The translations under genes were made by a program, and so were the position numbers. From Chloroflexia bacterium SDU3-3 (GTDB taxonomy: Bacteria; Chloroflexota; Chloroflexia; Chloroflexales; Roseiflexaceae), in assembly GCA_009268125.1 (NCBI GenBank), contig WBOU01000007.1:62001-126000 (forward strand): a stretch of DNA of 64,000 bases, read 5' to 3'. Of the stretch, positions 6,515-31,390 are shown piece after piece. Every line of letters begins with the position of its first letter. Position 1 is the first letter of the stretch. Under the pieces are notes generated by a model that was not told the DNA's origin, searched no databases, and saw only the letters and a program-made list of their open reading frames with translations.

Positions 6515-6540
6515 GCGGGGGTATCGGCATGGCTGGATAT

Positions 6541-6555
6541 GTGTTATACTAACAC
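6541..6555 (+). promoter_or_regulatory. Palindromic operator overlapping an extended -10 element
   Basis: GTGTTA-TAC-TAACAC is a perfect 6+3+6 palindrome, and it contains TGT-TATACT (6542-6550), an extended -10 box. A repressor bound here would cover the -10. It lies 27 bases after the pseudo-kinase stop and ahead of the metallophosphoesterase. Confidence 0.5.
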
Positions 6556-6563
6556 CAAGAGAT

Positions 6564-6597
6564 GCGAGGGAGCTTTGTGCTATCCCTCGCTTTTTTT
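6564..6597 (+). terminator. Intrinsic terminator, possibly an attenuator before the metallophosphoesterase
   Basis: The stem GCGAGGGA (6564-6571) pairs with TCCCTCGC (6583-6590) and is followed by seven T. It lies between the TATACT box at 6545-6550 and the start codon at 6618. It could simply terminate the upstream transcript, or attenuate the transcript that starts near 6557. Confidence 0.75.
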
Positions 6598-6617
6598 GCG
6601 TAGCAGCGGGCGAAACA

Positions 6618-7295
6618 ATGCAGTTTCTCACAGTGAGCGACGAGGTTGTTCCGGCGGTCTACAGCTTGAATATCAAAGAGCGATTTTCGCAAGTGCAGAT
6701 CGTTCTGGGCTGCGGCGACCTTCCGTATTACTACCTTGAATTTATTGTCACCATGCTGGGCCTGCCGTGCTTCTACGTCTATGGCAACCACGATACCGTG
6801 GAGCAGACATCGGGCGGCGAAGTGCTGTATGGCGCACGTGGATGTACGCTGGTTGAAGATCGCGTGATCAATCACCAGGGCTGGCTTATCGGTGGGCTGG
6901 GCGGCAGCATCCGCTACAACGATGACGAGGCCCCCCAGTACACCGACCAGCAGATGCTGATGCGGATCTGGAAGATGACCCCGCAGCTGCTGCTGAACAA
7001 AGTGCGGCATGGTCGCCATATCGACATTTTGCTCACCCACTCGCCGCCGATTGGGATCCATAATGGCCCAGATCGGCCACATCGCGGGTTCAAGGCGTTT
7101 CTGAACTTCATGGATCGTTTCCAGCCGCGCTATCTGATCCATGGTCACATCCATCGGTCCTATGGCTTTAGCCCGGTGACAGAAACGCGCTATAAGGATA
7201 CACTGGTGGTAAACACTGCGGGGCACCGCCTGCTTACCGCCCAGCTTGGCAATGAGGCACCAACGTCATCAACGCTCGATGGCAAAATTATCTGA
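6618..7295 (+). CDS. Calcineurin-like metallophosphoesterase
   Basis: The 225-residue protein starts at ATG 6618 (MQFLTVSDEVVPAVYS). The longer frame from 6504 would run through the terminator and operator upstream. The dimetal motifs appear in order: SDE near residue 7 in place of the usual DxH, GCGDLP, GNHD, THSPP and HGHIH. These bind two metal ions that hydrolyse a phosphoester; the substrate is not evident. The compact size without membrane segments suggests a cytosolic enzyme. The first motif variant SDE is what I would expect for one bacterial subgroup of the family, but I cannot confirm it here. Regulation may involve the operator and the hairpin directly upstream. Confidence 0.85.
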   Translation: MQFLTVSDEVVPAVYSLNIKERFSQVQIVLGCGDLPYYYLEFIVTMLGLPCFYVYGNHDTVEQTSGGEVLYGARGCTLVEDRVINHQGWLIGGLGGSIRYNDDEAPQYTDQQMLMRIWKMTPQLLLNKVRHGRHIDILLTHSPPIGIHNGPDRPHRGFKAFLNFMDRFQPRYLIHGHIHRSYGFSPVTETRYKDTLVVNTAGHRLLTAQLGNEAPTSSTLDGKII

Positions 7296-7459
7296 TCGTA
7301 CTTCGGCCTGCGTGCTATGGCGCGCAGCATAGGTGTCATTGATGCACTACATTGTTGCGTGTCGAACCGTTTGGCCGATAGATTCTTCTGCGAAACGGCT
7401 TGCCAGCGTTGGCGGCTACCGGCATCGTTGTCCGGCGTAGCTGATTCGGGAGAGAATCT

Positions 7460-8383
7460 ATGGACAACACCTATATCTCACGCGTCGCGCAGGAAGATTT
7501 TAAAGACGCGCGGCGTAAAGCGTTTTTCTCTGAGCTACTTGATACGCTGCGGCGGCGGCCTAATGAGCTGCTCTCGTTCGATGATGTCCGCATGCGGCTC
7601 AATATCCGTGCTCAGCGCTACCTCGGTCACCAGACCGTGCCGCTCGCCAATATTGTGGGGAGCGAGGGCCGCTATAGCGATTTCGACCGCCAGTTTCTGC
7701 CCCGCACCGATGCCATCCGCAACCGCTGGAGCAATATCGACCGCGCCATGATCCAGTCGGTCGCCCTGCCCCCGATCGAGCTGTACAAGATCGGCGATGT
7801 CTACTTTGTGCGTGATGGCAACCACCGTGTGTCGGTGGCCCGCCAGCAGGGCGCGCTCTTCATCGATGCCTTTGTCACCGAGATGGTGGTGGATGTGCCG
7901 CTTGAGGCGGATCTCTCGGTGCGCGACCTGATGCTGAAGGAAGAGTACAGCGATTTTCTTGAGTGGACCGATCTGGCCGAGCTGCGCCCCGACCAGCGCA
8001 TCGAGTTCAGCGAGCCGGGCGGCTATCTGCAGCTGGTGCGGCATATCAATGCCCACCGCTACTATATGGGCCTTGAGCGCGACGAAGAGGTGCCGCGCGA
8101 TGAGGCGGTGGGCGACTGGTACGACAGCGTCTACCTGCCGATCGTGCAGGTCATCCGCGAGCAGGGCGTGCTGCGCGCCTTCCCAGGCCGCACCGAGGCC
8201 GACCTGTACCTCTGGATCATGGATCACCGCTGGTTCACCCGCGAGCGGATCGGCTACGACCCTGGCCCCACCGATGCCACCACCGATTATGTGGCCCAGT
8301 TTGGCCGCCGGTCGCTTGGGGCGGCGGTGGGCGATGCCTTCCGCAGCGCGCTCTCGCGCCTGCGGCTTGTCCCGCTTTCTTAG
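7460..8383 (+). CDS. ParB/Srx-like domain protein of unknown function
   Basis: The 307-residue soluble protein has GGGAGAG as Shine-Dalgarno before ATG 7460. Around residues 85-135 it reads IELYKIGDVYFVRDGNHRVSVARQQG-like, with DGNHR being the signature of the ParB/sulfiredoxin fold. The N-terminal 80 residues and the C-terminal half (LERDEEVPRDEAVGDWYDSVYLPIVQVIRE) match nothing I recognise. No HTH segment is obvious, so it is not a classical partition ParB. ParB-like folds can bind or hydrolyse nucleotides; the role here is unknown. It is closed by a strong terminator at 8401-8440. The 164-base gap before it shows nothing distinctive. Confidence 0.65.
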   Translation: MDNTYISRVAQEDFKDARRKAFFSELLDTLRRRPNELLSFDDVRMRLNIRAQRYLGHQTVPLANIVGSEGRYSDFDRQFLPRTDAIRNRWSNIDRAMIQSVALPPIELYKIGDVYFVRDGNHRVSVARQQGALFIDAFVTEMVVDVPLEADLSVRDLMLKEEYSDFLEWTDLAELRPDQRIEFSEPGGYLQLVRHINAHRYYMGLERDEEVPRDEAVGDWYDSVYLPIVQVIREQGVLRAFPGRTEADLYLWIMDHRWFTRERIGYDPGPTDATTDYVAQFGRRSLGAAVGDAFRSALSRLRLVPLS

Positions 8384-8400
8384 GCGGTAGGCTGTATGGC

Positions 8401-8440
8401 AGCGGCCCAGGCTTCACATAAAGCCTGGGCCGCTGTTTTT
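8401..8440. terminator. Strong hairpin terminator between convergent genes
   Basis: A perfect 14-bp stem (8401-8414 with 8421-8434) and a six-base loop are followed by GTTTTT. It lies between the ends of the convergent ParB-like and ThuA-like genes and may serve both. Confidence 0.85.
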
Positions 8441-8457
8441 GCCACGCGGCGGGCTGC

Positions 8458-9171
8458 CTAGCGCGGCTGGTAGTTGCCAAACGTGGGCTTGGGGCCGTCG
8501 GCGGGGGCCGCCCAGCGCACCGCGTTGGCGATCACCTGGCGGATCTGCGGGTTGTAGTAGGTCGGGAAGCTCTCGTGGCCGGGGCGGAAGTAGAAGATCT
8601 TGCCGCGCCCGCGGGTGTAGCAGCAGCCGCTGCGGAACACCTCGCCGCCGGTGAACCAGCTGACCATCACCAGCTCGTCGGGCTGGGGGATGTCGAAGAA
8701 CTCGCCGTACATCTCCTCGTTGGCCAGCTCGATGCACTCGGGCAGGCCTGCGGCGATCGGGTGGCCCGGCTGCACGATCCAGATCCGCTCTTTGTCCTCG
8801 GCCTCGCGCCACTTCAGGTCGCAGGTGGTACCCATCAGCTTGCGGAAGATCTTCGAGAAGTGGCCCGAGTGCAGCACGATCAGGCCCATACCCTCAAGCA
8901 CGCGTTTGTGCACCTTGGCCACCACCTCGTCGCCTACCTCGTGGTGGGCCATATGCCCCCACCAGATCAGCACATCGGTCTTGGCCAGCACCTCGTCGGT
9001 GAGGCCGTGCTCTGGCTCATCCAGCGTGGCGGTGCCCACGTCGAAGCCGTGCTGGCTCAGGCCCTCGGCGATCGCGCCGTGGATACCTTCTTTATAGAGC
9101 TGGCTGGCGGGGTGCCGATCGTCCTTTTCGTGGCGGAACTCGTTCCAGACGGTAACATGCAACACACTCAT
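8458..9171 (-). CDS. ThuA-like (trehalose-utilisation family) protein
   Basis: I start the 237-residue protein at ATG 9171 ([16 protein letters not shown]). The upstream extension is not conserved-looking. The class-I glutamine amidotransferase-like fold of the ThuA family is visible: [54 protein letters not shown] and [18 protein letters not shown]. Members are linked to sugar catabolism and keto-sugar chemistry, but their reaction is not well defined. There is no sugar transporter or dehydrogenase next to it. The protein looks cytosolic, with no signal peptide. Confidence 0.85.
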
Positions 9172-9531
9172 TGTGTTTCTTTCTGCTGTGGTGCGAAGAA
9201 CCCGACGCACGCTAGTATAGGCAGCGCCGATCGGGCCGTCAACAGACGCGGGATGGATATGTAGGATTGCGGTTGATGCTACGACGGCCGTACATATCGC
9301 AGGGGTACATACCACAACTGCTGCTATTTCGCCAATGAATTGCTGGTGTCAGGCCGTTGCGTGCGGACGCGCCTTTTGGTAAACTGGCCACGCAAAAGCT
9401 GCTGTGCAGCTTGCGCAGTTTGGCGCCAAGTCGCGTGAATGCTGCTACGCCTGTGCATCACCGCCACGTGTACCTGAGAAAAGAAACATACTTGTACGTA
9501 TGATATGTTGTAGTAAAATAGATCTGCTGGT
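9172..9531. other. Divergent intergenic region
   Basis: These 360 bases hold the promoters of the ThuA-like gene (leftward) and the O-antigen ligase-like gene (rightward). TATACT on the minus strand at 9215-9220 is a possible -10 for the former. An 8-bp inverted repeat, GATATGTA (9256-9263) with TACATATC (9291-9298), may be an operator. I see no gene. Confidence 0.5.
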
Positions 9532-11034
9532 GTGTCGGCCAGCGACCCTGAAGATGGTGCTGGGCCTGTGAAAACGCTCTCGACTGGTTGGCGTCTCCAC
9601 ATCGCCGATACGCTACGGACAAATCGACTCGCGCAGAATCTGCTGATCGCCGTTGCCGCCATCGTGGTGGGGCTGCTGGCGGGCGCGCTGGTGGTCTTTG
9701 CCCCGTTCTGGCTTGGGTTTGCCCTTCTCATCGCGCTGGCGCTGGGCTACGCGCTGCTGCGCAGCACCAACTTTGGCCTGGCAGGCGCGCTGTGCATCGC
9801 GATCGTGCTGCCTTTTGGCACCCTGCCCTTCAAGGCGGTGGTCACCCCGCAGCTGCTGGAGCTGGTGCTGCTGGCGCTGATGGGCGTGTGGCTGCTGCGC
9901 CTGATGGTGACGCCTGAGGCGACCCTGCAGCTTTCCCCACTTGGGCTGCCGGTGATCGGCTTCTTGGGCCTGACGCTCTTCTCATTTATCCTTGGGTCGA
10001 ACGGAAGCCCGGACTCGCTGCTGCTGCATAACTACTTTAAGTTTGTGCTGGCGGTGCTCTTTTTTTTCAGCATCACCAACTGTGTGCGCAGCATCGGGCA
10101 GGCTCAGTTTGTGCTGCGCTGCCTGATCATCCTCGGCGTGGTGGCGGCGCTGATCGGCCTGGTGCTGTTCGCGCTGCCCAACGATCTCTCCGAGCGGCTG
10201 CTGGTCGCGCTTGGCCGCTTCGGCTACCCGACCGAAGGGCGTGTGCTGCGCTTCGTGAACGATGATATCTATGGGGTCGAGCGGGCGATCGGCCTGGGCG
10301 TCGACCCCAACAGCTTTGGGGGCATGCTGTCGCTGGTGGGGGCTATCGCGGCCACCCAGGCGGTGGCCGAGCGCCCCACGCTGCCGCGCTGGGCCAGCAT
10401 CCTGGCCGCGCTGCTGATCGCGGGGGTGACGTTCCTCACGCAGTCGCGCGGGGCGCTGGGCGGCCTGGTGGTGGGCGTGGCGTTTGTGGCGGTGGTGCGC
10501 TACCGTCGGCTGCTGTGGCCGATGCTGGGCGCGGCGCTGGCGGGCGTGGTGCTCTACACGGCCTTCGGCATTGGCAGCTCGTTTGTCACCCGCGTGGTCG
10601 AGGGCCTGCAGTTCCGCGATCTGGCCAACCAGATGCGGCTGGCCGAGTTTCGCAATGCTCTTGCGGTCATCCAGGCCTACCCGGTGTTTGGCATCGGCTT
10701 CGGCAGCGCCCCCGAGCTTGATCTGGTGGCCGGGGTCTCCAGCATCTACCTGGCCATGGGCCAGCGGATCGGCCTGGTGGGCCTGGGCGCATTTCTTGTG
10801 GTTGTGGCCATCTGGTTTCGCCATGTGCACCGCGCGAGCCAGGCGGCGTTTCGTCGGCAGGATGTTGCGATCGGCGGATGGCTGCTGGCGCTTGAGGCCG
10901 GTGTGGTCGCCGCGCTGGCCGTGGGCGTGCTAGACCATTATTTCTTTAATATTGAGTTTAGCCATATGGCGACGCTGCTCTGGGGGACGATTGGTCTGGG
11001 GATGGCACTCGAATCGATGAGTGCAGAGAATTAA
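9532..11034 (+). CDS. O-antigen ligase / polymerase-like membrane protein
   Basis: The 500-residue protein begins at a GTG (MSASDPEDGAGPVK) and contains about twelve hydrophobic segments. The diagnostic Wzy_C-type stretch, FLTQSRGALGGLVVG, lies near residue 305, followed by a long loop with VFGIGFGSAPELD and the final helices. Proteins of this type ligate or polymerise surface polysaccharide at the outer face of the cytoplasmic membrane. No glycosyltransferase lies nearby, so the polymer is unknown. The gene is followed after 74 bases by a sensor kinase on the same strand. A start at a downstream codon (VKTLSTGW) is possible. Confidence 0.85.
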   Translation: MSASDPEDGAGPVKTLSTGWRLHIADTLRTNRLAQNLLIAVAAIVVGLLAGALVVFAPFWLGFALLIALALGYALLRSTNFGLAGALCIAIVLPFGTLPFKAVVTPQLLELVLLALMGVWLLRLMVTPEATLQLSPLGLPVIGFLGLTLFSFILGSNGSPDSLLLHNYFKFVLAVLFFFSITNCVRSIGQAQFVLRCLIILGVVAALIGLVLFALPNDLSERLLVALGRFGYPTEGRVLRFVNDDIYGVERAIGLGVDPNSFGGMLSLVGAIAATQAVAERPTLPRWASILAALLIAGVTFLTQSRGALGGLVVGVAFVAVVRYRRLLWPMLGAALAGVVLYTAFGIGSSFVTRVVEGLQFRDLANQMRLAEFRNALAVIQAYPVFGIGFGSAPELDLVAGVSSIYLAMGQRIGLVGLGAFLVVVAIWFRHVHRASQAAFRRQDVAIGGWLLALEAGVVAALAVGVLDHYFFNIEFSHMATLLWGTIGLGMALESMSAEN

Positions 11035-21233: not shown

Positions 21234-22049
21234 ATGGACGAATCGATCAAGTCGGCGGTGCGCGAGCACTATGGGAAGGCTATCCAGTCGGCAGGCTCGT
21301 GCTGTGGCGGCGGCAGCAGCTGCTGCGGGGATGATCAGCGCACCGAGGTGCTGCTCTACGGCCAGCAGGCGCTGGCCAGCCTGCCGAGCGAGGTGGTGAC
21401 GACATCGTTTGGCTGCGGCAACCCGCTGGCGATCGCCAGCCTACGCCCCGGCGAGGTGGTGCTGGATCTTGGCTCGGGCGGCGGGCTGGATGTGATGCTG
21501 GCGGCGCAGCGTGTGGGCGCGCAGGGCTACGTCTACGGCCTGGATATGACCGACGAGATGCTAGCCACCGCCCGCCGCAACATCGAGCGGGCTGGTGTGG
21601 CGAACGCCGAGTTTTTGAAGGGTGAGATCGAGGACATACCGCTTCCCAATGCCAGCGTCGATGTGATCATCTCCAACTGTGTGATCAACCTCTCGCCCGA
21701 TAAGGCCCAGGTGCTGCGCGAGGCCCAGCGGGTGCTGCGCCCCGGCGGGCGGCTGGCGGTCTCGGACATTGTGGTGGATGGCGACTTGAGCGATCTGCCG
21801 GTGGATGAGGCTACGCTGCGCAGCGCGCTGAGCTGGGTCGGCTGCATCGCGGGGGCCATCCCGCAGGCCGAGTACACGCGGCTGCTGGCCGAGGCCGGCT
21901 TCGAGAACATTGATATGACGGTGAAGCACCGCTACACGATCGAGGATCTGGGCGAGATCCCCGAGCAGCTTGCTACGCTCGACCCCGTGCTGCTGGGCCA
22001 GATCGCCCAGCGCTTCGTCTCAAGCGCGATCAGCGCCCAGAAGCAGTAG
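21234..22049 (+). CDS. arsM: Arsenite S-adenosylmethionine methyltransferase
   Basis: The 271-residue protein has AGGAG upstream of ATG 21234. The SAM motif is [16 protein letters not shown], and the three conserved arsenite-binding cysteines fall in [19 protein letters not shown] and WVGCIAGA. A Cys-rich N-terminal stretch ([10 protein letters not shown]) is frequent in this family. ArsM methylates As(III) to mono- to trimethylated species in the cytosol, which can leave the cell as gas. It is the last gene of the island; no arsB or acr3 efflux pump is present, so methylation appears to be the local resistance route. Confidence 0.95.
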
Positions 22050-22102
22050 CGGGCGCGCATAGCGCTGCTTCTCTCGCGTAGCGGCTAGGTATATCTCTTT
22101 GC

Positions 22103-22136
22103 ATGCCTCGGCCACATCACTCATGGGCCGGGGCAT
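22103..22136 (+). terminator. Hairpin after arsM
   Basis: ATGCCTCGGCC (22103-22113) pairs with GGCCGGGGCAT (22126-22136) with one G-T pair. There is no clear T-run, so it is a weak terminator call. Confidence 0.45.
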
Positions 22137-22179
22137 CCTTTCGGATATAGCTGCACTCGATTTTGCGCAGAATCATGTT

Positions 22180-22656
22180 TTACTTCCAAACCGATCCAGC
22201 CCCGAGCCGTAGATGATTATCAGTACCTACCATATAGAAAGTAGTGTCTTTTTTTAGATTATTACGCCGGTTATCCCCTTCTAGGCTTATCTCGATAGTA
22301 TCACCCACATGGAATATATTATCAAAGCTAATTATAATGCCGTTGCTATCATTTGCTGATTTATTACAATCAATATTTCCTATACTTTGATGAGATTTGA
22401 AATTGCTTATATCTTCTTCGATAGAAACAGATACGTTATAATATACTTCTGATCCTAAGCATGTGACATATAGAACAATTTTTGGATTATCACCCTTCAT
22501 GATAAGTTCTAAATCGCCAATTTTTGTCACAGTATGTGGCTGCGCGATGGGGGCAGCTTGCTTCCAGGAGGAACCGCCCTGGGTAGTATTAGAACATGAA
22601 GATGAGAGTATAAGAACAGCAGCGAGTAACATGATTCTATATGCATAGTGTGTCAT
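22180..22656 (-). CDS. Hypothetical lipoprotein in an AT-rich island
   Basis: I start this 158-residue protein at ATG 22656 (MTHYAYRIMLLAAVLILSSSC), preceded by AAGGAG. The signal ends in the lipobox LSSSC, so it is probably lipid-anchored outside the membrane. The mature part has no domain I recognise; it alternates beta-like stretches (KIGDLELIMKGDNPKIVLYVTC) and Lys/Asn-rich segments. Base composition and codon use are far more AT-rich than in neighbouring genes, which suggests horizontal acquisition. It lies downstream of another AT-rich gene on the same strand. Confidence 0.65.
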   Translation of the reverse strand: MTHYAYRIMLLAAVLILSSSCSNTTQGGSSWKQAAPIAQPHTVTKIGDLELIMKGDNPKIVLYVTCLGSEVYYNVSVSIEEDISNFKSHQSIGNIDCNKSANDSNGIIISFDNIFHVGDTIEISLEGDNRRNNLKKDTTFYMVGTDNHLRLGAGSVWK

Positions 22657-22722
22657 TATAGGCTCCTTGTACATTTTATAATAATGTGGTTTTATTCTTA
22701 GTAAATATGAAAAAGCAAATAT

Positions 22723-22769
22723 AGATAGCAAGCTGCAAGGCTTTGCTATAGCTTTGCAGCTTGCTATCT
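22723..22769 (-). terminator. Hairpin terminator between two AT-rich genes
   Basis: A perfect 16-bp stem (22723-22738 with 22754-22769) surrounds a 15-base loop. It lies just after the stop of the 22789-23190 gene on the minus strand, and a T-rich stretch follows in that direction. Confidence 0.7.
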
Positions 22770-22788
22770 TTTATTCAACCAGGCAGAC

Positions 22789-23190
22789 CTACGCGACTTG
22801 CCAGATTGAGTAGCTTACGCCTTTAAACTCAAAAGCTTGACCCGATCCAGCTTTGTAAGAGTCGCCAATCCAAGGATCGAACCACACATCATAATCTGTA
22901 ACAGCATGCTTATGGTAGGCATCAATTTCCCAAGTAGTATTAGGAGGCATATTCAGTGAATACTGATAGCTGTTACTTCCTGTGAGTGTAACATCAAAGC
23001 CAATACCAGCGGTAACTACTTGAGCAGTTACACCAACATTGGCATTGAAAGAATGACTCCAACTATATTGCGATGTAAGGCCTAAAGTAGCCTGGCAACA
23101 AGCAGGCGCATGACCGGACATGGCAGGAGTATTACATATTAGTGAGCGTACTGTCCATAGCCATATACATAGCATCTTGGCTAAACTCAA
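22789..23190 (-). CDS. Small secreted-type beta-rich protein, probably truncated at the 5' end
   Basis: The 133-residue frame has a convincing C-terminal domain: GVTAQVVTAGIGFDVTLTG, YSLNMPPNTTWEIDAYHK and DYDVWFDPWIGDSYKAGSG. This pattern (a glycine-rich hairpin, a WEIDAY strand and a YDVWFDPW-type end) reminds me of uncharacterised secreted proteins of Gram-positive and Chloroflexota genomes. The first 35 residues look unlike a signal peptide, there is no Shine-Dalgarno, and family members I recall are longer, so a 5' truncation or frameshift is likely. Composition is AT-rich relative to the surroundings. Confidence 0.45.
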   Translation of the reverse strand: MSLAKMLCIWLWTVRSLICNTPAMSGHAPACCQATLGLTSQYSWSHSFNANVGVTAQVVTAGIGFDVTLTGSNSYQYSLNMPPNTTWEIDAYHKHAVTDYDVWFDPWIGDSYKAGSGQAFEFKGVSYSIWQVA

Positions 23191-23358
23191 TGTGCATAGC
23201 CGCGCAGAGGCAATAGCTTACCTCTATCAATCAAGTATTTATGTTCCGCCAGATAAATCGCGAGAGGTTGGTGGATGAAAATCTAAAAAATTAACGTAAT
23301 ACTACAAAAGATGTTCTGTATATGTGGGTCAATCATTTTCTGGTGCTTAAGGTGCCAT

Positions 23359-23400
23359 GCACAAAGGAAGGGCGGCACACGTGCCGCCCTTCCTTTGTGC
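23359..23400. terminator. Long perfect hairpin after the MutL-like gene
   Basis: A 20-bp perfect stem (23359-23378 with 23381-23400) has almost no loop. It lies 19 bases beyond the stop of the MutL-like gene. There is no T-run on either side, so it may work as a terminator or as a 3'-end stabiliser. Confidence 0.65.
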
Positions 23401-23418
23401 TATCTGTTGTGTTCTCTC

Positions 23419-25542
23419 TCACTTGCGGCCAAACAGCCCGCGCTTCTTGGGCTGCTCGACCGACTGCCGCAGCCGGTCGAGTCCGCCGCCACCCTCCTGC
23501 TGGGTTGGCTCCGACGGCGGCGGGGCGGTGGGGATGACCGCCACCGCAGTGATCGGCTCCTCTTCCTGCTTGCCCTTCTTGCCGCGCTTTTTCTTCTTAC
23601 CATCGTCCTCTGGTGCTGCCGCTGGGGGCGGGGACGCGGCGATTTTGGCATCCACCGGCTGGGCGGTGGGCTGCTCCTCGTGCTCGGGGGCTGCCGGGAA
23701 GGTATTGATCTCCATGATCTCGCGTAGCGGCTCGGCGGCCTCGTAGGGCATCGTGCCGCTCTCGGCCCCCAGGGCCACCAGCCACTCCCAGAGCGCGCGC
23801 TGCCGATCCAGGGGGGCGATCGGCAGGCGCAGCGGCCTGCCGCGTGCGTCGATCACCACGCCCAGCGCGCTGCCGCTGATGTCCGCCGGGCCGGTCTCGA
23901 TCGAGGCCCCGGGTGCATTGCCGCCGATCCGCACGCCGCCTGCGGGCTTTAGGATGAGCTGACCCTTCTGGCCCTGCGGCAGATCCAGCCGGGCGATCTG
24001 GCCATGGTTCACCGTCACCGTCTGCTCGCCGCCGCCCACGGTGCGCAGCGTGGCCTCAACCGCCAGCTCGCCGCTGCGGCCCGGGCCTAGCGCCACCACG
24101 CAGGTAGCCAGCGGCATGTTGCGCAGCAGATCCTGCTCGATCAGCGAGAGCGCTCCCTCGGCATCGCTGGGGGCCAGCGCGCCTGCGGTGTTCACCAGTC
24201 CCAGGGTGTCGAGGTAGATGTCGATAGCGCGCTCGTCGGCCAGTGGCTGCAGCGCATCCAGCAGCGTCAGCAGCGCATAGCCGGGGTGGGGCGCGTGCGA
24301 GAGCACGCCGCCGCTGGCCAGCACGAAGTCGAAGGGCGCGCCTGGGCGCTCGTCGAACAGCGCTGCGGCGGTGAGCGCCACCGCCTCGCGGGCCACCGCG
24401 TGCTCGATCATCACATCCTCGCGGCTGGTGGGCACCAGCTGGGGGCGCAGCTGCTTGTTCAGCAGGCTGTGCAGCATGTCCTGATCGCTGATCGGGAAGG
24501 GCAGCCAGCGCATGAAGGCCGATGTGCCGCGCTCGGCCACCAGATGCCCCACGCCATAGCCGCTGCCGATAGCGCCAAGCACCGCCGCGCTAAACGCACC
24601 CTGGCTGGAGAGCAGCGCGCTGGTGCTGGCCGAGCCGAGGTCGATAGCCAGGATGTTCCTGCCGTAGAAATCGGCCAGGAAGCGGGTGATCAGGCCTGCG
24701 GCATCGGTGGTGGTGCGGATGGGCACTGTGCTGACCCGCCGCAGATTCTGCAGGCCGGGCATGCGGCGCAGGATGCGCTCGGTGTAGAGCTTGGTGAGCG
24801 CCTTGCGGGTCGGTGCGAGGTTGGCCTTATCCAGCGACGGGCGCAGGTTCTCGACCACGATCGGCTCGGCCTTGTTCGCCAGCGACTCGACGACCTGCTC
24901 GCTAGCCCTGCTGTTGCCGGCGTAGATCACGGGGCGCACCGTCACATCGTGGCGCGACTGCCCGTCGGCATCTACCCGCGCCGAGAGCGCCGTGAGCCCG
25001 ATGATATGCGCCAGACGCACCAGTGAATCCTGCGCGCCCTGCTCAAGGCCACCCGCCAGGATGACCACATCGGGGTTCAGGCCGATCATGCGCTGGACCT
25101 GCCGCTCGATCCACGAGTAGTCGCCGGTGGCCACGCTGTGCTCGGTCGCGTCGTTCAGCGTGATCGTCTGCAGCACCACCGAATTGACGGCGCGGCTGGC
25201 GTGCAGCGCGCTGCGGGCCGAGATATCGCTTGAGACCGCAGTGACCACGATCGCCATCGGCCCCGCCGCGCTGGTGACGGTGATCAGGTGGTCGATGCCG
25301 TCGCCATCATTTGTCCGAGGCATCAGCAGATTCTCGCCCAGCAGCAGCTGTCGCCCAGTCAGATCGCTGATCGCTGCGGCAGCCTGGATGATCGAGACCA
25401 TCACATCGCTATGCGGCGGCTCATAGGTGCTGGGCACCTCGGCCTGGGCGATCAGGCGCAGCTGGCCCGCCACGTGGTCGGTGAGAGTCGCACGGGTGGT
25501 CACGCTGCCGATATCGATGATAAGTGTCGCAGAATTTGGCAT
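23419..25542 (-). CDS. MutL-like (glutamate mutase accessory family) ASKHA ATPase
   Basis: I start the 707-residue protein at ATG 25542 (MPNSATLIIDIGSVTTRATL). Two actin-fold phosphate-1 motifs are visible, IDIGSVTTRA near residue 8 and LAIDLGSASTSALLS near residue 300, with the domain-level features VVILAGGLEQGAQD and FVLASGGVLSHAPHPGYA. This matches the MutL family named after the glutamate mutase operon. No mutase subunit gene (MutS/MutE) is nearby. A low-complexity tail, PPPAAAPEDDGKKKKRGKKG and later KKRGLFGRK, is basic. It is the last gene of the uncharacterised membrane operon, so a chaperone or energising role in that complex is more likely than a mutase role. Confidence 0.8.
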   Translation of the reverse strand: MPNSATLIIDIGSVTTRATLTDHVAGQLRLIAQAEVPSTYEPPHSDVMVSIIQAAAAISDLTGRQLLLGENLLMPRTNDGDGIDHLITVTSAAGPMAIVVTAVSSDISARSALHASRAVNSVVLQTITLNDATEHSVATGDYSWIERQVQRMIGLNPDVVILAGGLEQGAQDSLVRLAHIIGLTALSARVDADGQSRHDVTVRPVIYAGNSRASEQVVESLANKAEPIVVENLRPSLDKANLAPTRKALTKLYTERILRRMPGLQNLRRVSTVPIRTTTDAAGLITRFLADFYGRNILAIDLGSASTSALLSSQGAFSAAVLGAIGSGYGVGHLVAERGTSAFMRWLPFPISDQDMLHSLLNKQLRPQLVPTSREDVMIEHAVAREAVALTAAALFDERPGAPFDFVLASGGVLSHAPHPGYALLTLLDALQPLADERAIDIYLDTLGLVNTAGALAPSDAEGALSLIEQDLLRNMPLATCVVALGPGRSGELAVEATLRTVGGGEQTVTVNHGQIARLDLPQGQKGQLILKPAGGVRIGGNAPGASIETGPADISGSALGVVIDARGRPLRLPIAPLDRQRALWEWLVALGAESGTMPYEAAEPLREIMEINTFPAAPEHEEQPTAQPVDAKIAASPPPAAAPEDDGKKKKRGKKGKQEEEPITAVAVIPTAPPPSEPTQQEGGGGLDRLRQSVEQPKKRGLFGRK

Positions 25543-25641
25543 AGATCTCGTTTTCACCAGAACATGTGCCTTGGTGCGGGCAATGCGCCCGCACCAAGGC
25601 ACTAGCGATGTTTGACTCCATCCGCTCGGCGCGCGGTGGGC

Positions 25642-26268
25642 CTACCAGGTGATCAGGAAGCGCACGCGCTCGCTCAGCGCCGCGAGGTAGGTCTGCACCG
25701 CGCTGGCGAAGAAGAAGCCGAATGCGATCATGAGCACCCAGTGGCCCAGCACCGCTGCCCGCTGCACCAGCTGGCCGACGGGCGTTTTCTGATTGGTGGT
25801 GAAGTAGAAGCGGCAGAGCACCGCCACGGTGCCGATGGCCAGCACGGCGACGCCAGCGATCTGGCTGATATCTTGGCCGGCAGCTTGGGCGCTTGCGCGG
25901 ATCTGCGGTACGAGCGTGCCCACCATTGCACCGCCAGCGGCCAGCGCGGCGCCCACGCCGAACACGAGCGAGAGCGGGATATTGGCCAGCCACGAGTAGC
26001 GCTGGTCGGTGGTGATGCGCGGCAGCAGCAGCACGCCAAGCACCAGGGGGACGGCGTAGAGCGTCAGGGTGGTGGCGCTCAGGTTGCTGGCCGTGGCCAG
26101 CACCGCGCGCTGCAGCACCTCTTGGTAGGCCACCACGAAGGCCAGCCCCAGCGAGACGCCGACAAACAGGTATTGCGCCACACGAAAGAAGGGGTTATCC
26201 CCAAAGATCCGGCTTAGAACCATCACGGTCAGCAGCGCGGCGATAATTTGAGCGATCAGCTGGGTCAT
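25642..26268 (-). CDS. Hypothetical integral membrane protein of the P-x-W-L operon
   Basis: This 208-residue protein contains about six hydrophobic segments (first MTQLIAQIIAALLTVMVLS, last WVLMIAFGFFFASAVQTYL) and short loops, one reading RITTDQRYSWL. I recognise no transporter or enzyme motif. It overlaps the stop of the P-x-W-[LM] protein gene by four bases (ATGA), so translation is coupled and a physical complex is plausible. The MutL-like gene follows 99 bases later. Confidence 0.75.
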   Translation of the reverse strand: MTQLIAQIIAALLTVMVLSRIFGDNPFFRVAQYLFVGVSLGLAFVVAYQEVLQRAVLATASNLSATTLTLYAVPLVLGVLLLPRITTDQRYSWLANIPLSLVFGVGAALAAGGAMVGTLVPQIRASAQAAGQDISQIAGVAVLAIGTVAVLCRFYFTTNQKTPVGQLVQRAAVLGHWVLMIAFGFFFASAVQTYLAALSERVRFLITW

Positions 26269-29200
26269 GCTTTTCTCCGTCGCGTCGCATCGACGATGGC
26301 AGCAACAATAGCTCCGACGAGCAGCAGGCTGACGAAGGCGATCATTCCCAGGCGTAGCTGCCCAGTCTCGACCGCTGCCGTGCCCTGGGCATCGCCGCGC
26401 AGCGCGGCATAGGCTAGGGCGCCCGGCGCCCCCACTAGCCCAAACACGTGCGGCTGCCGCTGGTATGGTTCGGAGGCCGGTGCGGCTTCGGCGGTCATCA
26501 GGGTGGCGAAAGGTACATCGGGCGCGGCCTGGTAGATCTGCTCCATCCAGCTCTGGATGTCGGACTGATCGTCGGCCAGCAGCATGATCATGGAGAAGTT
26601 CTTCAGGCTGGTCAGCGGCGTGTTGGTGCCGGTGGATGTTCCGAGCGCCAGCGGGCTGCTGGTCATATCCTCGCCCTGGAAGTCGGCGTTGAGCGTGTTG
26701 CCAAAGTTCTGCGCCAGCGATCGCAGGGCCAGCTCGCCGCCGGGCTGGTACCCCAGCAGCAGGTAGTCGATGCCGCTCGGGCGGTACTGCGCAGCGCTCA
26801 GCTTATCGCGTAGATCGTATAGCAGCAGCGATCCTTGCGGGTCGGTGCTCACGAGCACGAGCTTGACTTTCTGCTCGATCAGCTGGCCGACCACGCTTTG
26901 CTCCAGCGGTCGTAGCTCGGCCACTCGGCGCGCATCCCAGTCGTAGCCGATCAGCACCACATCGTTTGGCCCGAGCTTGCTGATCTGCTCGTGCAGCGCC
27001 TGGGCTTTGGTATCTGCCGCTGGGGCCTGCAGCTGGCTTGTTAGTGCGGGCACCAGCGCTCCCGCCAGCAGCACGGCGATCAGCAGCAGGTAGAGCACGC
27101 GATCGACGCTCAGGATCGAGCGGGTAGCTGGGGCCTTGGGCTCCTCTTGGCTGGCTGCCCGCGCTGGCTGCGGGTCACGGGCGATCCGCTCAAGCAGCGC
27201 GATGGCCTGCAGCTGCGACTCGGTCTTGACCGGGTTTGGCGGCGGCGCGAAGCGCGTGGTGACGACGGCCTGGGGTGTAGGGGCCTGCTCCTCTTCCTCG
27301 GTCGATCCGAGCTTGGTGAGCCAGTCGAGCGCCTTGCTCTCGGCCACCTTCTCGGGGGTGGCCTTCTGCTCGGGCTGGCGCAGCCACGCGGGCAGATCGG
27401 CTGCGCCGAAGAAGTTGGAATCGCTCTCGGCCTGCTCTGGCTCCGCCGCTGGCTCTGGCTCATCGAACCAGCCGCCGACTGCGGGCTGCGCTGGGTCTGC
27501 CGCAGGCTGCGGATCGGGCGCTGGCTGCTGTGCCTGGGCCGCCAGCGTGCTTTCGATCTCCGGGTCGAGCGTGGCGCCTTTCAGCCAGGGTGGCAGATCC
27601 TGCTCGCCAGGGCTGGATGCGCTGGGCATCGGCGCGCCGCTCTCGTCGCGCAGCCAAGGTGGCAGATCTTGGCCTCCGCCAAGTGGTTCGGGCGCTGGCT
27701 TGGGTGCTGGCTCGGGCGCTGGTGCTGGCTTGGGCGCTGGTGCGGCTGGCTCGGCCTGCACGCCGCGCATCCATGCTGGCAGGGTCTCATCCATCGGCTG
27801 CGGCGAGGCGGTCTCCGCCTCGCGGAGCCAGTCGGGCACCTCGGGCGCGCCCTGCGGCTGGCTGGCACCGGCGGGCGACTCAAGCCAGTCGGGTGTGGCT
27901 GGCTCCGGCTGCTGCCGTGGCGGTGTGTCGATCGGCAGAGCCGACTCGCTTGCCTGCAGCCAGGAGGGGACGCTCTCGTCGCGGCCTGGCTCAGTCGGCT
28001 GGGACGCCTCCTGCAGCCAGGAGGGGACGCTCTCGTCGCGGCCTGGCTCAGTCGGCTGGGACGCCTCCTGCAGCCAGGAGGGGACGCTCTCGTCGCGGCC
28101 TGGCTCAGTCGGCTGGGACGCCTCCTGCAGCCAGGATGGCGTTCCTGTTCCAGATGCCAGCAGCGGACTCTGCTCGGCGTCGTCGATACTTTCTTGTAGC
28201 CAGGGGGGGAGATCTTCACCACTGCTTGCTGCATCGTTGGCTGGCGGCAGGCTGCTAGGTGCCTCCCAGCTTGGTACGTCGCTGGATGCCGTGTCCTCAG
28301 TAGCGCTGGAGAGCCAGCTCGGCGCGTCGCTGGATGCTGTGTCCTCAGTAGCGCTGGAGAGCCAACTCGGCGCGTCGTTATCAGATAGGTCTTCGGCGGG
28401 CTGATTAGGCTGCGGTCGCGCGGGCTGCTCGCTGGCGCTAAACCAGTCAGCGGTGCCACCTGCCGAGTCATCGCTGCCAAGCCATGCGGGCGGGCCGCTT
28501 TGTGGTGCCGGTGTGCTGCTGCCGCCCATGCCCTCGAAGCTGAAGGGCTCTATCGTCGGCTCTTCATCCGTACCTTCCATTGCGGCCTTGACATCGTCCA
28601 TTGGGATGTCGTTGAGCCAGTCGTTGATGTCAAGCTTCTCTGTCGCGTAGCCTGTTTGCTCAGCTGTAGGAGTGGGGTCATCCCATAGGGTAGGCGTGGT
28701 GGGCTGCGCGGGTTCGGCTGCCACATTCCAGCTACTGCTCTCTGGTGCTGGCTCCTCGGGCTGTTCGGCCATGGCCTTCAGCCAATCCGGCACTTCCTCC
28801 GGACGGTCAAGGGGTGGATCTGCTGCGCGGGTGCTCGGCTCTGGTGCCTGCTCGCTTATGCCCTGCAGCCAGTCGGGGACGGTCTCCTCAGCCTGGGGCG
28901 CGGGGGTAGCCGCCGACTCGCGGAGCCAGTCGGGGACGGTCTCCTCAGCCTGGGGCGCGGGGGTAGCCGCCGACTCGCGGAGCCAGTCGGGGACAGCCTC
29001 CTCAGCCTGGGGCGCGGGGGCAGCCGCCGACTCGCGGAGCCAGTCGGGGACAGCCTCCTCAGCCTGGGGCGCGGGGGTAGCCGCCGACTCGCGGAGCCAG
29101 TCGGGGATGGTCTCCTCAGCCTGGGGCGCGGAGGTAGCCGCCGACTCGCGGAGCCAGTCGGGAAGCGTCTCGCTTTGCTGAGGCGCAGCCGGGCTAGCCC

Positions 29201-29372
29201 CGCTTAGCCAGTCGGGCACCGCATTGCTAGGTGCGCTAGCATCGCTGGGCGCCGCCTGCCAAGATGCCGCACGTTCGGCGTGGCCCGCCTGCGATGCTGG
29301 TTTCGGCGGCAGCGGCTGATCGCGCAGCCATGGAGGTAGGTTTGTGTTTGTATCAGATGGATCGCGGTTCAC
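26265..29372 (-). CDS. Large scaffold-like protein with an array of P-x-W-[LM] motifs and membrane C-terminus
   Basis: The 1,035-residue protein has a proline/acid-rich N-terminal region of about 730 residues that contains 23 copies of a P-x-W-[LM] motif (PDWLRES, PSWLQEA, PPWLRD, PAWMRG types). They sit at intervals of about 15-60 residues, many in exact tandem repeats. A membrane segment (LLIAVLLAGALVPALTS, residues ~760-778), a folded domain of about 220 residues (NDVVLIGYDWDARRVAEL, KLVLVSTDPQGS), and a second membrane segment with an RRRKA tail follow. By the positive-inside rule the motif array would be cytosolic and the folded domain outside. Short regularly spaced motifs suggest multivalent docking. 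No domain is recognised. Confidence 0.8.
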   Translation of the reverse strand: MNRDPSDTNTNLPPWLRDQPLPPKPASQAGHAERAASWQAAPSDASAPSNAVPDWLSGASPAAPQQSETLPDWLRESAATSAPQAEETIPDWLRESAATPAPQAEEAVPDWLRESAAAPAPQAEEAVPDWLRESAATPAPQAEETVPDWLRESAATPAPQAEETVPDWLQGISEQAPEPSTRAADPPLDRPEEVPDWLKAMAEQPEEPAPESSSWNVAAEPAQPTTPTLWDDPTPTAEQTGYATEKLDINDWLNDIPMDDVKAAMEGTDEEPTIEPFSFEGMGGSSTPAPQSGPPAWLGSDDSAGGTADWFSASEQPARPQPNQPAEDLSDNDAPSWLSSATEDTASSDAPSWLSSATEDTASSDVPSWEAPSSLPPANDAASSGEDLPPWLQESIDDAEQSPLLASGTGTPSWLQEASQPTEPGRDESVPSWLQEASQPTEPGRDESVPSWLQEASQPTEPGRDESVPSWLQASESALPIDTPPRQQPEPATPDWLESPAGASQPQGAPEVPDWLREAETASPQPMDETLPAWMRGVQAEPAAPAPKPAPAPEPAPKPAPEPLGGGQDLPPWLRDESGAPMPSASSPGEQDLPPWLKGATLDPEIESTLAAQAQQPAPDPQPAADPAQPAVGGWFDEPEPAAEPEQAESDSNFFGAADLPAWLRQPEQKATPEKVAESKALDWLTKLGSTEEEEQAPTPQAVVTTRFAPPPNPVKTESQLQAIALLERIARDPQPARAASQEEPKAPATRSILSVDRVLYLLLIAVLLAGALVPALTSQLQAPAADTKAQALHEQISKLGPNDVVLIGYDWDARRVAELRPLEQSVVGQLIEQKVKLVLVSTDPQGSLLLYDLRDKLSAAQYRPSGIDYLLLGYQPGGELALRSLAQNFGNTLNADFQGEDMTSSPLALGTSTGTNTPLTSLKNFSMIMLLADDQSDIQSWMEQIYQAAPDVPFATLMTAEAAPASEPYQRQPHVFGLVGAPGALAYAALRGDAQGTAAVETGQLRLGMIAFVSLLLVGAIVAAIVDATRRRKA
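27955..28125 (-). repeat. Three identical 57-bp tandem repeats (PSWLQEA type)
   Basis: Copies begin at 27955, 28012 and 28069 and are identical; a partial fourth begins at 28126. Each encodes 19 residues containing SVPSWLQEASQPTEPGRDE. Exact identity suggests recent expansion. Confidence 0.9.
28291..28376 (-). repeat. 48-bp tandem repeat (PSWLSS type)
   Basis: Two near-identical 48-bp units encode 16 residues with APSWLSSATEDTASSD. They lie within the P-x-W-[LM] array. Confidence 0.8.
28867..29168 (-). repeat. About five 57-bp tandem repeats (PDWLRES type)
   Basis: Units start about every 57 bp (28869, 28926, 28983, 29040, 29097, 29154) and each encodes 19 residues of the PDWLRESAATPAPQAEE form with few changes. 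The period equals that of the unrelated array at 27955-28125. Confidence 0.88.
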
Positions 29373-29473
29373 CGCTTATACCCTTATTATCAAGGAGGGC
29401 AGAACACAGAGGCTAGTCGTATGAGAAGACGATCTGCGATCTGTACCTGCGATCTCGCATCTTCAAGCGTAAG

Positions 29474-30157
29474 CTACCGGTCAAGAAATGGCTGATCGAA
29501 CCCAAGCAGCACTCGTATGCCGGCAACTAATGCGCCGATGGCACTGCCCAACAGCAGCCCGCGTGCACCCGCTAGAACAAGGTAATCGTTGATCCAGGCA
29601 ATGCTCGACCCCACAAATGGCAGCATATCCAGGGATGGCACAGCGGTGATCAGAAGCACCACCAGCGCCACCACCACGATGACGATCGCGTCGAGGCTGC
29701 GCTTGCGCACGGCGCGCAGCGCGGCGCTCAGGCTAAAAAAGGCCAGCAGCGCCAGAAACGACGATGCGAGCGGCTGATAGACCGTATTAAAGATGGCGCG
29801 AATGGGTTTTTCGATCAGGCTGCGCGGCAGCACAAACCCGGTGCTCCCATCATCCGAGAACACGGGTGAGAAGATCGTGCCGACGATGATCGTGATCAGC
29901 ATGGCGGCCAGCAGCAGCACGCTATAGCCCCAGTCCGAGTCGCGCTTTCTGATCCGCCCAACGTGGCTCGTGACCACGTTGATCAGTCCGACTACCAGGG
30001 CTACTGCCGTCACAATAGCAGCCCAGTTCACCAGCAGCTGGGCGATGCCTCCTACCTGCGGGAGTGATATGACAAGGTCGATGAGAACAATCAACCCTGC
30101 GACGCCAGCGATGATCGTTGCCAGCAGCCGTTTTGGATCGCGGAAGAGAGAAGACAT
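29474..30157 (-). CDS. Hypothetical integral membrane protein of the P-x-W-L operon
   Basis: The 227-residue protein starts at ATG 30157 (MSSLFRDPKRLLATI). It has six hydrophobic segments with a charged loop (SHVGRIRKRDSDWGYS) and a polar loop (FSDDGSTGFVLPRSLIEKPI). No motif of a known family is evident. It sits between the 30283-31059 gene and the P-x-W-[LM] gene on the same strand with gaps of 101-125 bases. Confidence 0.75.
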   Translation of the reverse strand: MSSLFRDPKRLLATIIAGVAGLIVLIDLVISLPQVGGIAQLLVNWAAIVTAVALVVGLINVVTSHVGRIRKRDSDWGYSVLLLAAMLITIIVGTIFSPVFSDDGSTGFVLPRSLIEKPIRAIFNTVYQPLASSFLALLAFFSLSAALRAVRKRSLDAIVIVVVALVVLLITAVPSLDMLPFVGSSIAWINDYLVLAGARGLLLGSAIGALVAGIRVLLGFDQPFLDR

Positions 30158-30282
30158 AGAACTCGTCTTTTTCGCGGTGATGCTGGGTATCAACACGCAT
30201 AAGCACCAAAGAAGCAGACGGCAGCCTTAGTTGCTGCACGATCTGCTTACGCCTCAGGAGTGCGTATTGTAAACCAGATCAT

Positions 30283-31059
30283 CTAGAACTGTACACCGAG
30301 CAGTCCCATCACAGTGGCCGCAATGATCGCGATGATCGTGATGGTGCGAAGCAGATCCTGGGTGAGCAGCCGCGCCTGCGGCGCTGTGGCCCGCGAGAGA
30401 TACGCCTCGGCGGCGAAGATCTCCTCGCCGATCAGCGTGCCCTCGCATGTGAGGTAGGTCAACGGCTGCGGGGTGGTGCTGGTTGCCCCCGCCATCTGGG
30501 CCACGCCGGCCTGCGCACCCACCTCGCCCGCCAGCAGAAACTCTTCGCCGAAGCTGCCAAGCATCTGGCTGGCCTCAAGCTGCTGCCGCCCGTAGATGGT
30601 GGTCATGCCCGAGGCATAGGCCATAGGGTCTTGCTGGGCCAGCATCTGCACATTCACTGGGTCGTAGTCTTGGCCAAACCCAGCCTGCTGGTACGCCTGG
30701 CGCAAGAAGCCGCGCTGGGCCAGGTGCGCCACCGCGTCGCCACTGCTGGCCAGCACCGGCGCGCCGTTGAAGGCCGCCTCGGTGGCCACCCGCTCGGCTG
30801 CCAGCAGCCCCGCGACGGTTGCCGCCGTGCTGGATCGGCTACCGATCGAGCCGCTCCCCGGCGAGACATGGATCGCGCGCCCGGTCTCCGCACCGCGCTC
30901 TAGCGCTCGCCGCATGATTGCAAGCGCAGGGATCGATCGCCGCTCGATGCGCTGTTTCCCAGATATAGCGCGGGCATGGTGGAGAAGCGTGATAAGCGCG
31001 ATGACGAAAATCGCAGCCAGAGAAAAAATCGAGAGGATTGTCTGAAGCGGTATATTCAA
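30283..31059 (-). CDS. Membrane protein of unknown function (DUF6754-like by recollection)
   Basis: The frame is open from 31185, but I prefer a TTG at 31059 (MNIPLQTILSIFSLAAIFV) with GCGAGG upstream, giving 258 residues. An N-terminal membrane segment, a central Gly/Ala/Ser-rich domain (AIHVSPGSGSIGSRSST, then LTYLTCEGTLIGEEIFAAEA) and a C-terminal membrane segment (TITIIAIIAATVMGLLG) are visible. The arrangement resembles proteins labelled DUF6754 in Anaerolineae and Chloroflexales, but that is memory and not a search. It is the first gene of the operon that ends with the MutL-like protein. Confidence 0.65.
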   Translation of the reverse strand: MNIPLQTILSIFSLAAIFVIALITLLHHARAISGKQRIERRSIPALAIMRRALERGAETGRAIHVSPGSGSIGSRSSTAATVAGLLAAERVATEAAFNGAPVLASSGDAVAHLAQRGFLRQAYQQAGFGQDYDPVNVQMLAQQDPMAYASGMTTIYGRQQLEASQMLGSFGEEFLLAGEVGAQAGVAQMAGATSTTPQPLTYLTCEGTLIGEEIFAAEAYLSRATAPQARLLTQDLLRTITIIAIIAATVMGLLGVQF

Positions 31060-31132
31060 GAGGGCCTCGCACAATTCTTTACAACGGCAGGCCGGGCAAT
31101 GGCTTTGAGTGTATCCTAAAAGAAAACGTTTG

Positions 31133-31390
31133 TCAACACTCCGGCTGATCGACCATCCGTCGTAAAGAGTGCCAGCTCTGCTCATCCCCTAGCGCGCCCA
31201 GGTAGCGCTGCCAGCCGCTGTTTGGCGCAAAGGGCTGCGCAAAAAGTGCCACCTGGCTAGCTAGCATCGCCACTGGCTCAACCGCCTCAAGGATCATACA
31301 GGCCACCCCCGCCAGCTGCTGGCGGCGGATCTGCGCCGCCAGCTCGCTTAACGTTTGCTCACGATCTTGGTTTTGCTGGCTGGGGTTCAT
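31133..31390 (-). CDS. Small hypothetical protein coupled to dtd
   Basis: The 85-residue soluble protein ([20 protein letters not shown]) overlaps the dtd stop codon by four bases (ATGA), so it is translated after dtd on the same transcript. It is Gln/Ala-rich with a hydrophobic segment ([20 protein letters not shown]) and ends at [14 protein letters not shown] do not recognise a family. The gap to the 30283-31059 gene is 73 bases. Confidence 0.6.

Follow-up and report, generated by a model that had tools for sequence, protein, structure and literature searches.

About seven genes, six of which (Z, A, B, C, D and E) lie on the minus strand of a 64,000-nucleotide stretch of the genome of Chloroflexia bacterium SDU3-3, probably build a complex in the cell membrane. 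The whole of this stretch, taken from contig WBOU01000007.1, is referred to here as the window; the further gene, F, is located elsewhere in the same genome. The set A-E is a real conserved system, and we assign a probability of about 0.5 to the more specific reading that Z-A-B-C-D-E and the unlinked F form a membrane complex which, in Chloroflexota, carries a multivalent docking arm. To our knowledge, no described system fits this gene set. Gene A belongs to DUF6754 (PF20539), a family without known function; our literature search, which covered open-licence papers only, found no paper that names DUF6754, and keyword searches within the same scope returned nothing on the A-F system. The set appears new as a system, although its function may be a variant of the docking between an ASKHA protein and a short peptide that is used by FtsA and PilM.

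All five open reading frames (ORFs) from A to E are open at the coordinates that an earlier note on this DNA had assigned to them, with zero internal stops. That note had described five consecutive minus-strand genes in which the gene with a motif array overlaps the next membrane gene by ATGA. Both statements hold (the overlap is 4 nt, between C and D), but the limit of five genes does not, since Z and F are also members. Gene A (30283..31059, 258 aa) matches Pfam DUF6754 with E 3.4e-34 and 118.6 bits against a cut-off of 27. Gene B (29474..30157, 227 aa) encodes a polytopic membrane protein by hydropathy, has its own profile and belongs to no known family. Gene C (26265..29372, 1035 aa) encodes a predicted cytosolic motif arm followed by a membrane domain. 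Gene D (25642..26268, 208 aa) encodes another polytopic membrane protein, whose alignment contains a conserved DN-P-F-R...FVGVS-G motif. Gene E (23419..25542, 707 aa) encodes a MutL/GlmL-family ASKHA protein with a C-terminal beta-rich domain and a tail. Gene Z (31133..31390, 85 aa) overlaps dtd by ATGA, and its own profile matches in the window with E 5.6e-19. The Pfam search placed B, C and D in no family above cut-off, and a sequence search for solved structures of A-D gave nothing convincing.

We surveyed 301 genomes of the phylum Chloroflexota and read 40 neighbourhoods for gene order. DUF6754 is present in 67 of the 301 genomes and MutL-family proteins in 160, of which 124 are over the cut-off. 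A MutL match accompanies DUF6754 in 65 of the 67 genomes and lies on the same contig in 55 (tally of the survey tables). The complete series A-B-C-D-E was found in one order in 34 of the 40 loci; the remaining 6 end at contig ends, and several of these breaks fall in or just before the repeat-bearing C. Outside Chloroflexota, a DNA pattern made from the conserved D motif was scanned over a named genome collection, with phylum names taken from the record titles. At least 118 stretches matched, in WOR-3, Neomarinimicrobiota (Marinimicrobia), Latescibacterota, Zixibacteria, Eisenbacteria, Fermentibacteria, Gemmatimonadetes, Armatimonadota, Riflebacteria, Poribacteria, Methylomirabilis and others. 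A recognisable homologue was present in 117 of the 118 matches listed, and among these matches A-B-C-D is contiguous in 72 loci, E is found in 30 and E-F are adjacent in 24. Since only D was used as the probe, the neighbouring genes are independent evidence. The profile of gene B likewise matches in 40 Chloroflexota loci and in 103 ORFs of other-phylum loci. The earlier note had named co-location in other genomes as the check on its operon, and the homologues are indeed co-located, in order, across Chloroflexota and far beyond. A phage collection searched with C yielded no match.

The usual layout outside Chloroflexota is Z/E/F followed by A-B-C-D, and at times the A-B-C-D cassette is present in tandem copies (loci L076, L078, L088, L110 and L135). 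The gene that follows D in Fermentibacteria and Latescibacteria often encodes a TonB-dependent receptor, with ExbB/ExbD sometimes following further on (L100, L152, L154, L166 and others). Together with the polytopic nature and conserved loops of B and D, such arrangements would suit a transporter or exporter made of A-D, with E, F and Z as its regulator and an arm that only clusters complexes. However, A-D match no transporter family above cut-off, conservation of the outer-membrane neighbours is limited to Fermentibacteria and Latescibacteria, and the set holds no motor domain besides E. We therefore regard a transporter as an unlikely identity for the set.

Membership of Z and F in the system follows from the same surveys. 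The Z profile matches 37 Chloroflexota loci, in which Z stands ahead of A, and 22 loci of other phyla. Gene F encodes a barrel-sandwich/KOW-like protein and is found after E in most loci outside the taxonomic order to which the window belongs. Within that order F is present but unlinked, in 49 of 60 genomes (the 49 include one weak match from genus g2, with E 2e-4); the copy of the present genome is located at G000:C4:152393-153505. In the sister genus g2, A, E and full-length F are jointly missing in all 10 of the 10 sampled genomes, and this joint loss ties the unlinked F to the operon. Co-loss and gene order thus support the assignment of E, with its ASKHA fold, and F, which combines barrel-sandwich and KOW-like parts, to the complex. 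We also observed that F forms a row with genes for a hybrid histidine kinase (REC-GAF-HisKA-HATPase) and for a REC protein whose C-terminus is roadblock-like (locus L209, G000:C4:143000-162900, positions 6525-10539). In several relatives this row sits just before the ATP synthase operon. The REC-roadblock protein is missing in the ten g2 genomes, yet also in G321, which retains A, E and F.

The earlier note had identified E as a MutL-like ASKHA protein, and this identity is secure: Pfam MutL (PF13941) matches with E 3.8e-63 and 214 bits against a cut-off of 27, its model spanning residues 7-472 end to end, with the beta-rich region lying C-terminal to the ASKHA part. From family membership, E is predicted to bind or hydrolyse ATP, and our results would allow the proposed role as an assembly or energising factor. 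GlmL/MutL proteins of this family are accessory to adenosylcobalamin-dependent glutamate mutase, and E could by the same token be a reactivating chaperone of a B12-dependent mutase, with the membrane genes as incidental company. Shared membership in PF13941 favours such a role, as does the observation that E of other phyla is still closer to GlmL (221 bits). However, no mutase was found among the annotated neighbours in the window or the conserved neighbours of the sampled loci, which was the check that the earlier note had proposed for this point. Moreover, E scores 72 bits against the GlmL NCBIfam equivalog (cut-off 475) and 85 bits against Or-4 (cut-off 600) and so misses both. Unlike GlmL/MutL, it has the extra beta-rich domain and is constantly accompanied by A-D, F and Z; even distant phyla retain A-B-C-D together with E, and E is co-lost with A and F. 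A reactivase role for E is disfavoured on these grounds, and we consider it very improbable.

E resembles FtsA and PilM in its actin-like fold, and a profile of the E family shows weak similarity to PilM (E 0.003). In FtsA the peptide bound is the FtsZ tail (PMC9939409), in PilM a short conserved motif at the N-terminus of PilN (PMC5805733). E itself is neither of the two. The only over-cut-off match to ftsA (TIGR01174) in the genome is another gene, G000:C9:70199-71314; A-D have no PilN/PilO match in Pfam or NCBIfam, and PilN/O/P or other pilus genes are absent from the cluster. A comparison of tails showed that, in the taxonomic order of the window, E ends in a conserved cationic-aromatic peptide of the KKRGLFGRK type (encoded within 23419-23770). 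This end resembles that of the soluble zinc-ribbon motif proteins described below and is possibly a membrane anchor.

C has two predicted transmembrane helices (TMs), at residues 751-782 and 1004-1031, which flank an extracytoplasmic domain, and is thus itself a membrane protein. The earlier note had counted three membrane proteins besides C and read its motif array as a cytosolic docking platform; with these helices, C is not a separate soluble platform. AlphaFold models of A and of the membrane part of C, with predicted local distance difference test scores (pLDDT) of 95.0 and 93.8, respectively, both show two TM helices with an alpha/beta domain of Rossmann-like fold between them. Foldseek searches with the two models returned generic Rossmann-like matches only, none at E <= 0.001 (the best PDB matches had E 0.016 and 0.0056). 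Counts of lysine plus arginine within 15 aa of the TMs were 1.4/3.8/2.1/0.6 for A (115 sequences) and 3.3/1.3/1.2/4.0 for C (139 sequences). This positive-inside pattern supports, as a prediction, a topology with the domain of C outside and both termini of C inside, and with the domain of A inside. A of other phyla has a signal-peptide-like start and, ahead of TM1, a fibronectin-III-like domain (assigned by eye, not by a Pfam match), which fits the predicted topology of A. The TM-Rossmann-TM domain of C (26307..27095, minus strand; alignment and AlphaFold) is the sole part of C common to other phyla. Paralogy was rejected both for A and C (profile-profile probability 1.0%) and for B and D (0.7%).

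The remainder of C is an arm that is presumably disordered. It carries 23 P-x-W-[LM] motifs (27381..29336, minus strand), all within residues 1-720, whereas the same stretch, shuffled 1000 times, contained 0.38 on average and never more than 3; the count of 23 in the earlier note is therefore correct and far above chance. The array is partly a recent tandem duplication, with 57-bp units that are repeated 3.2 times with 100% match and 5.2 times with 96% match. Among Chloroflexota, the number of motifs in C ranges from 0, in one family with a C of 286-299 aa, to 63, and the median length of C before TM1 is 601 residues versus 15 elsewhere; all sampled C proteins of other phyla have 0 motifs. Most Chloroflexota C begin with a zinc ribbon, which the close relatives of the window have lost, beginning instead with an LPPWLR-type motif. 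Of 666 tryptophans in C N-termini, 475 lie within P-x-W-[LM] and 572 are followed by L, M, I or F. Flanking positions -2, -1 and +4 are enriched 3-7 fold, and the consensus is [DE]-[VLI]-P-x-W-L-[RK]. In the same genome, C alone was significant in a search for other P-x-W-L array genes that stopped short of a genome-wide motif census; a W-L spacing pattern occurred at background level on one strand, and its other matches were mostly short tandem repeats.

In genomes without detected DUF6754, E-F are still found beside a zinc-ribbon/P-x-W-L protein that lacks the Rossmann domain and has either one TM or an amphipathic cationic segment at its end. The persistence of this protein where A-D are missing indicates that the array follows E and the membrane rather than A-D. 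The earlier view of the array as a cytosolic docking platform can thus be kept in one part, its cytosolic side, which the positive-inside counts of the 139 C sequences support. It has to be given up in another, as an array that tracks with E rather than with the membrane genes, and is missing in all other sampled phyla, does not define the system.

The arm resembles the C-terminal peptide of FtsZ. FtsZ of this genome ends in DDLDIPPFLRNRRK (tail DIPPFLR), the arm of C contains DLPPWLR, and arms of relatives contain MEHLPPWLRNVPLPP. Both place D/E-aliphatic-P-x-aromatic-L-R/K in a disordered linker. The full pattern [DE][VILM]P.[FWY][LM][RK] was observed 127 times in C N-termini versus 0.8 expected when the P.W[LM] core was held and the rest shuffled, a count that tandem copies inflate. 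The FtsZ tail peptide has conserved D, P and F residues and is read by FtsA, ZipA, SepF, ZapD and SlmA (PMC9939409). Of these features the arm keeps the proline and often the acidic residue but replaces Phe with Trp, so that it lacks the acid-Pro-Phe combination as such. FtsA is present in 17 of 17 Chloroflexota genomes tested. SepF was rejected as the motif reader, as it was found in none of the 17. In genus g2, which has lost the system, FtsZ of L229 ends in DIPVFVRRNKDR as against DIPPFLRNRR, and a second FtsZ is present.

If the arm were a tryptophan version of the FtsZ peptide, then FtsA or another reader would bind it, and the complex would be septal or would compete with FtsZ for FtsA. 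The shared pattern, the presence of FtsA where SepF was not found, and the conserved tail residues with their several readers all speak for such a link to division. Against it, the aromatic residue of the arm is nearly always Trp (475 W, 3 F), while Phe stands at this position in those FtsZ tails of the sampled genomes that could be read, and the reader may accordingly be a different protein. The arm also differs in that its copies are many and internal, where FtsZ has a single one at its terminus, and in being borne by a membrane protein. Short motifs converge easily, division genes are absent from the cluster in the window, and FtsZ and FtsA are retained in the genus that lost the system. 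At the level of sequence, the arm and the FtsZ tail are alike without this being proof of a common reader, and a direct part in division seems doubtful.

We thus return to the membrane complex with a docking arm. A and C would each anchor a Rossmann-like domain by two TMs on opposite faces of the membrane, that of A cytosolic and that of C extracytoplasmic, and the membrane-spanning core would consist of A, B, C and D together. From the cytosolic side, E would act on this core, with F and Z, in a nucleotide-dependent manner that assists assembly or recruitment, much as FtsA and PilM serve the membrane proteins that they bind. The Chloroflexota form would differ by an extended N-terminus of C, an arm that mostly begins with a zinc ribbon and has up to 63 copies of the motif. 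As a multivalent docking array in the cytosol, this arm may bring numerous molecules of a single partner to the membrane, and that partner would most likely be E itself or a different protein that reads peptides of the FtsZ-tail type. More tentatively, and with a low probability in our estimate, E (or FtsA) might read W-type tails as FtsA reads F-type tails, giving an orthogonal, multivalent FtsZ-FtsA-like linkage on a widespread trans-membrane system.

Several points weigh against this reading. The core function cannot depend on the array, since one Chloroflexota family and all other sampled phyla do without it. In two cases (L005 and L006), the tail of E itself has two P-x-W-[LM] motifs, which complicates E as the sole reader. 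Some positions of E are conserved only where the array exists, but they appear inseparable from phylogeny, and we left them unused because array presence follows phylogeny. The Rossmann-like assignments, which come from predicted models, have no significant PDB match. Finally, complex formation and the roles of E and of the arm are what we infer from gene order, co-loss and motif enrichment.

At the borders of the operon, a promoter-like site, TTGACA-17-TACACT, lies just upstream of gene A (31108..31136, minus strand) and is a weak candidate from a consensus scan (10/12 matches). A terminator scan located a 19-bp perfect inverted repeat directly 3' of E (23359..23400, strand unspecified), probably the end of the transcription unit. 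The content of guanine plus cytosine is 51% in 22001-24000 versus 60-72% around it. Two small ORFs with no convincing family match occupy 22180-23190, perhaps a recent insertion after the operon.

The seven-gene set stays together in over a dozen phyla, many of which lack cultured members, and the system likely does something basic to the cell envelope of its hosts, although six of its seven proteins are without assigned function. The Chloroflexota version offers a handle, since its short repeated motif can be synthesised and used as bait, which makes the function testable. If the likeness to the FtsZ tail is functional, then these bacteria would possess a second, tryptophan-coded peptide-docking system alongside that of cell division.

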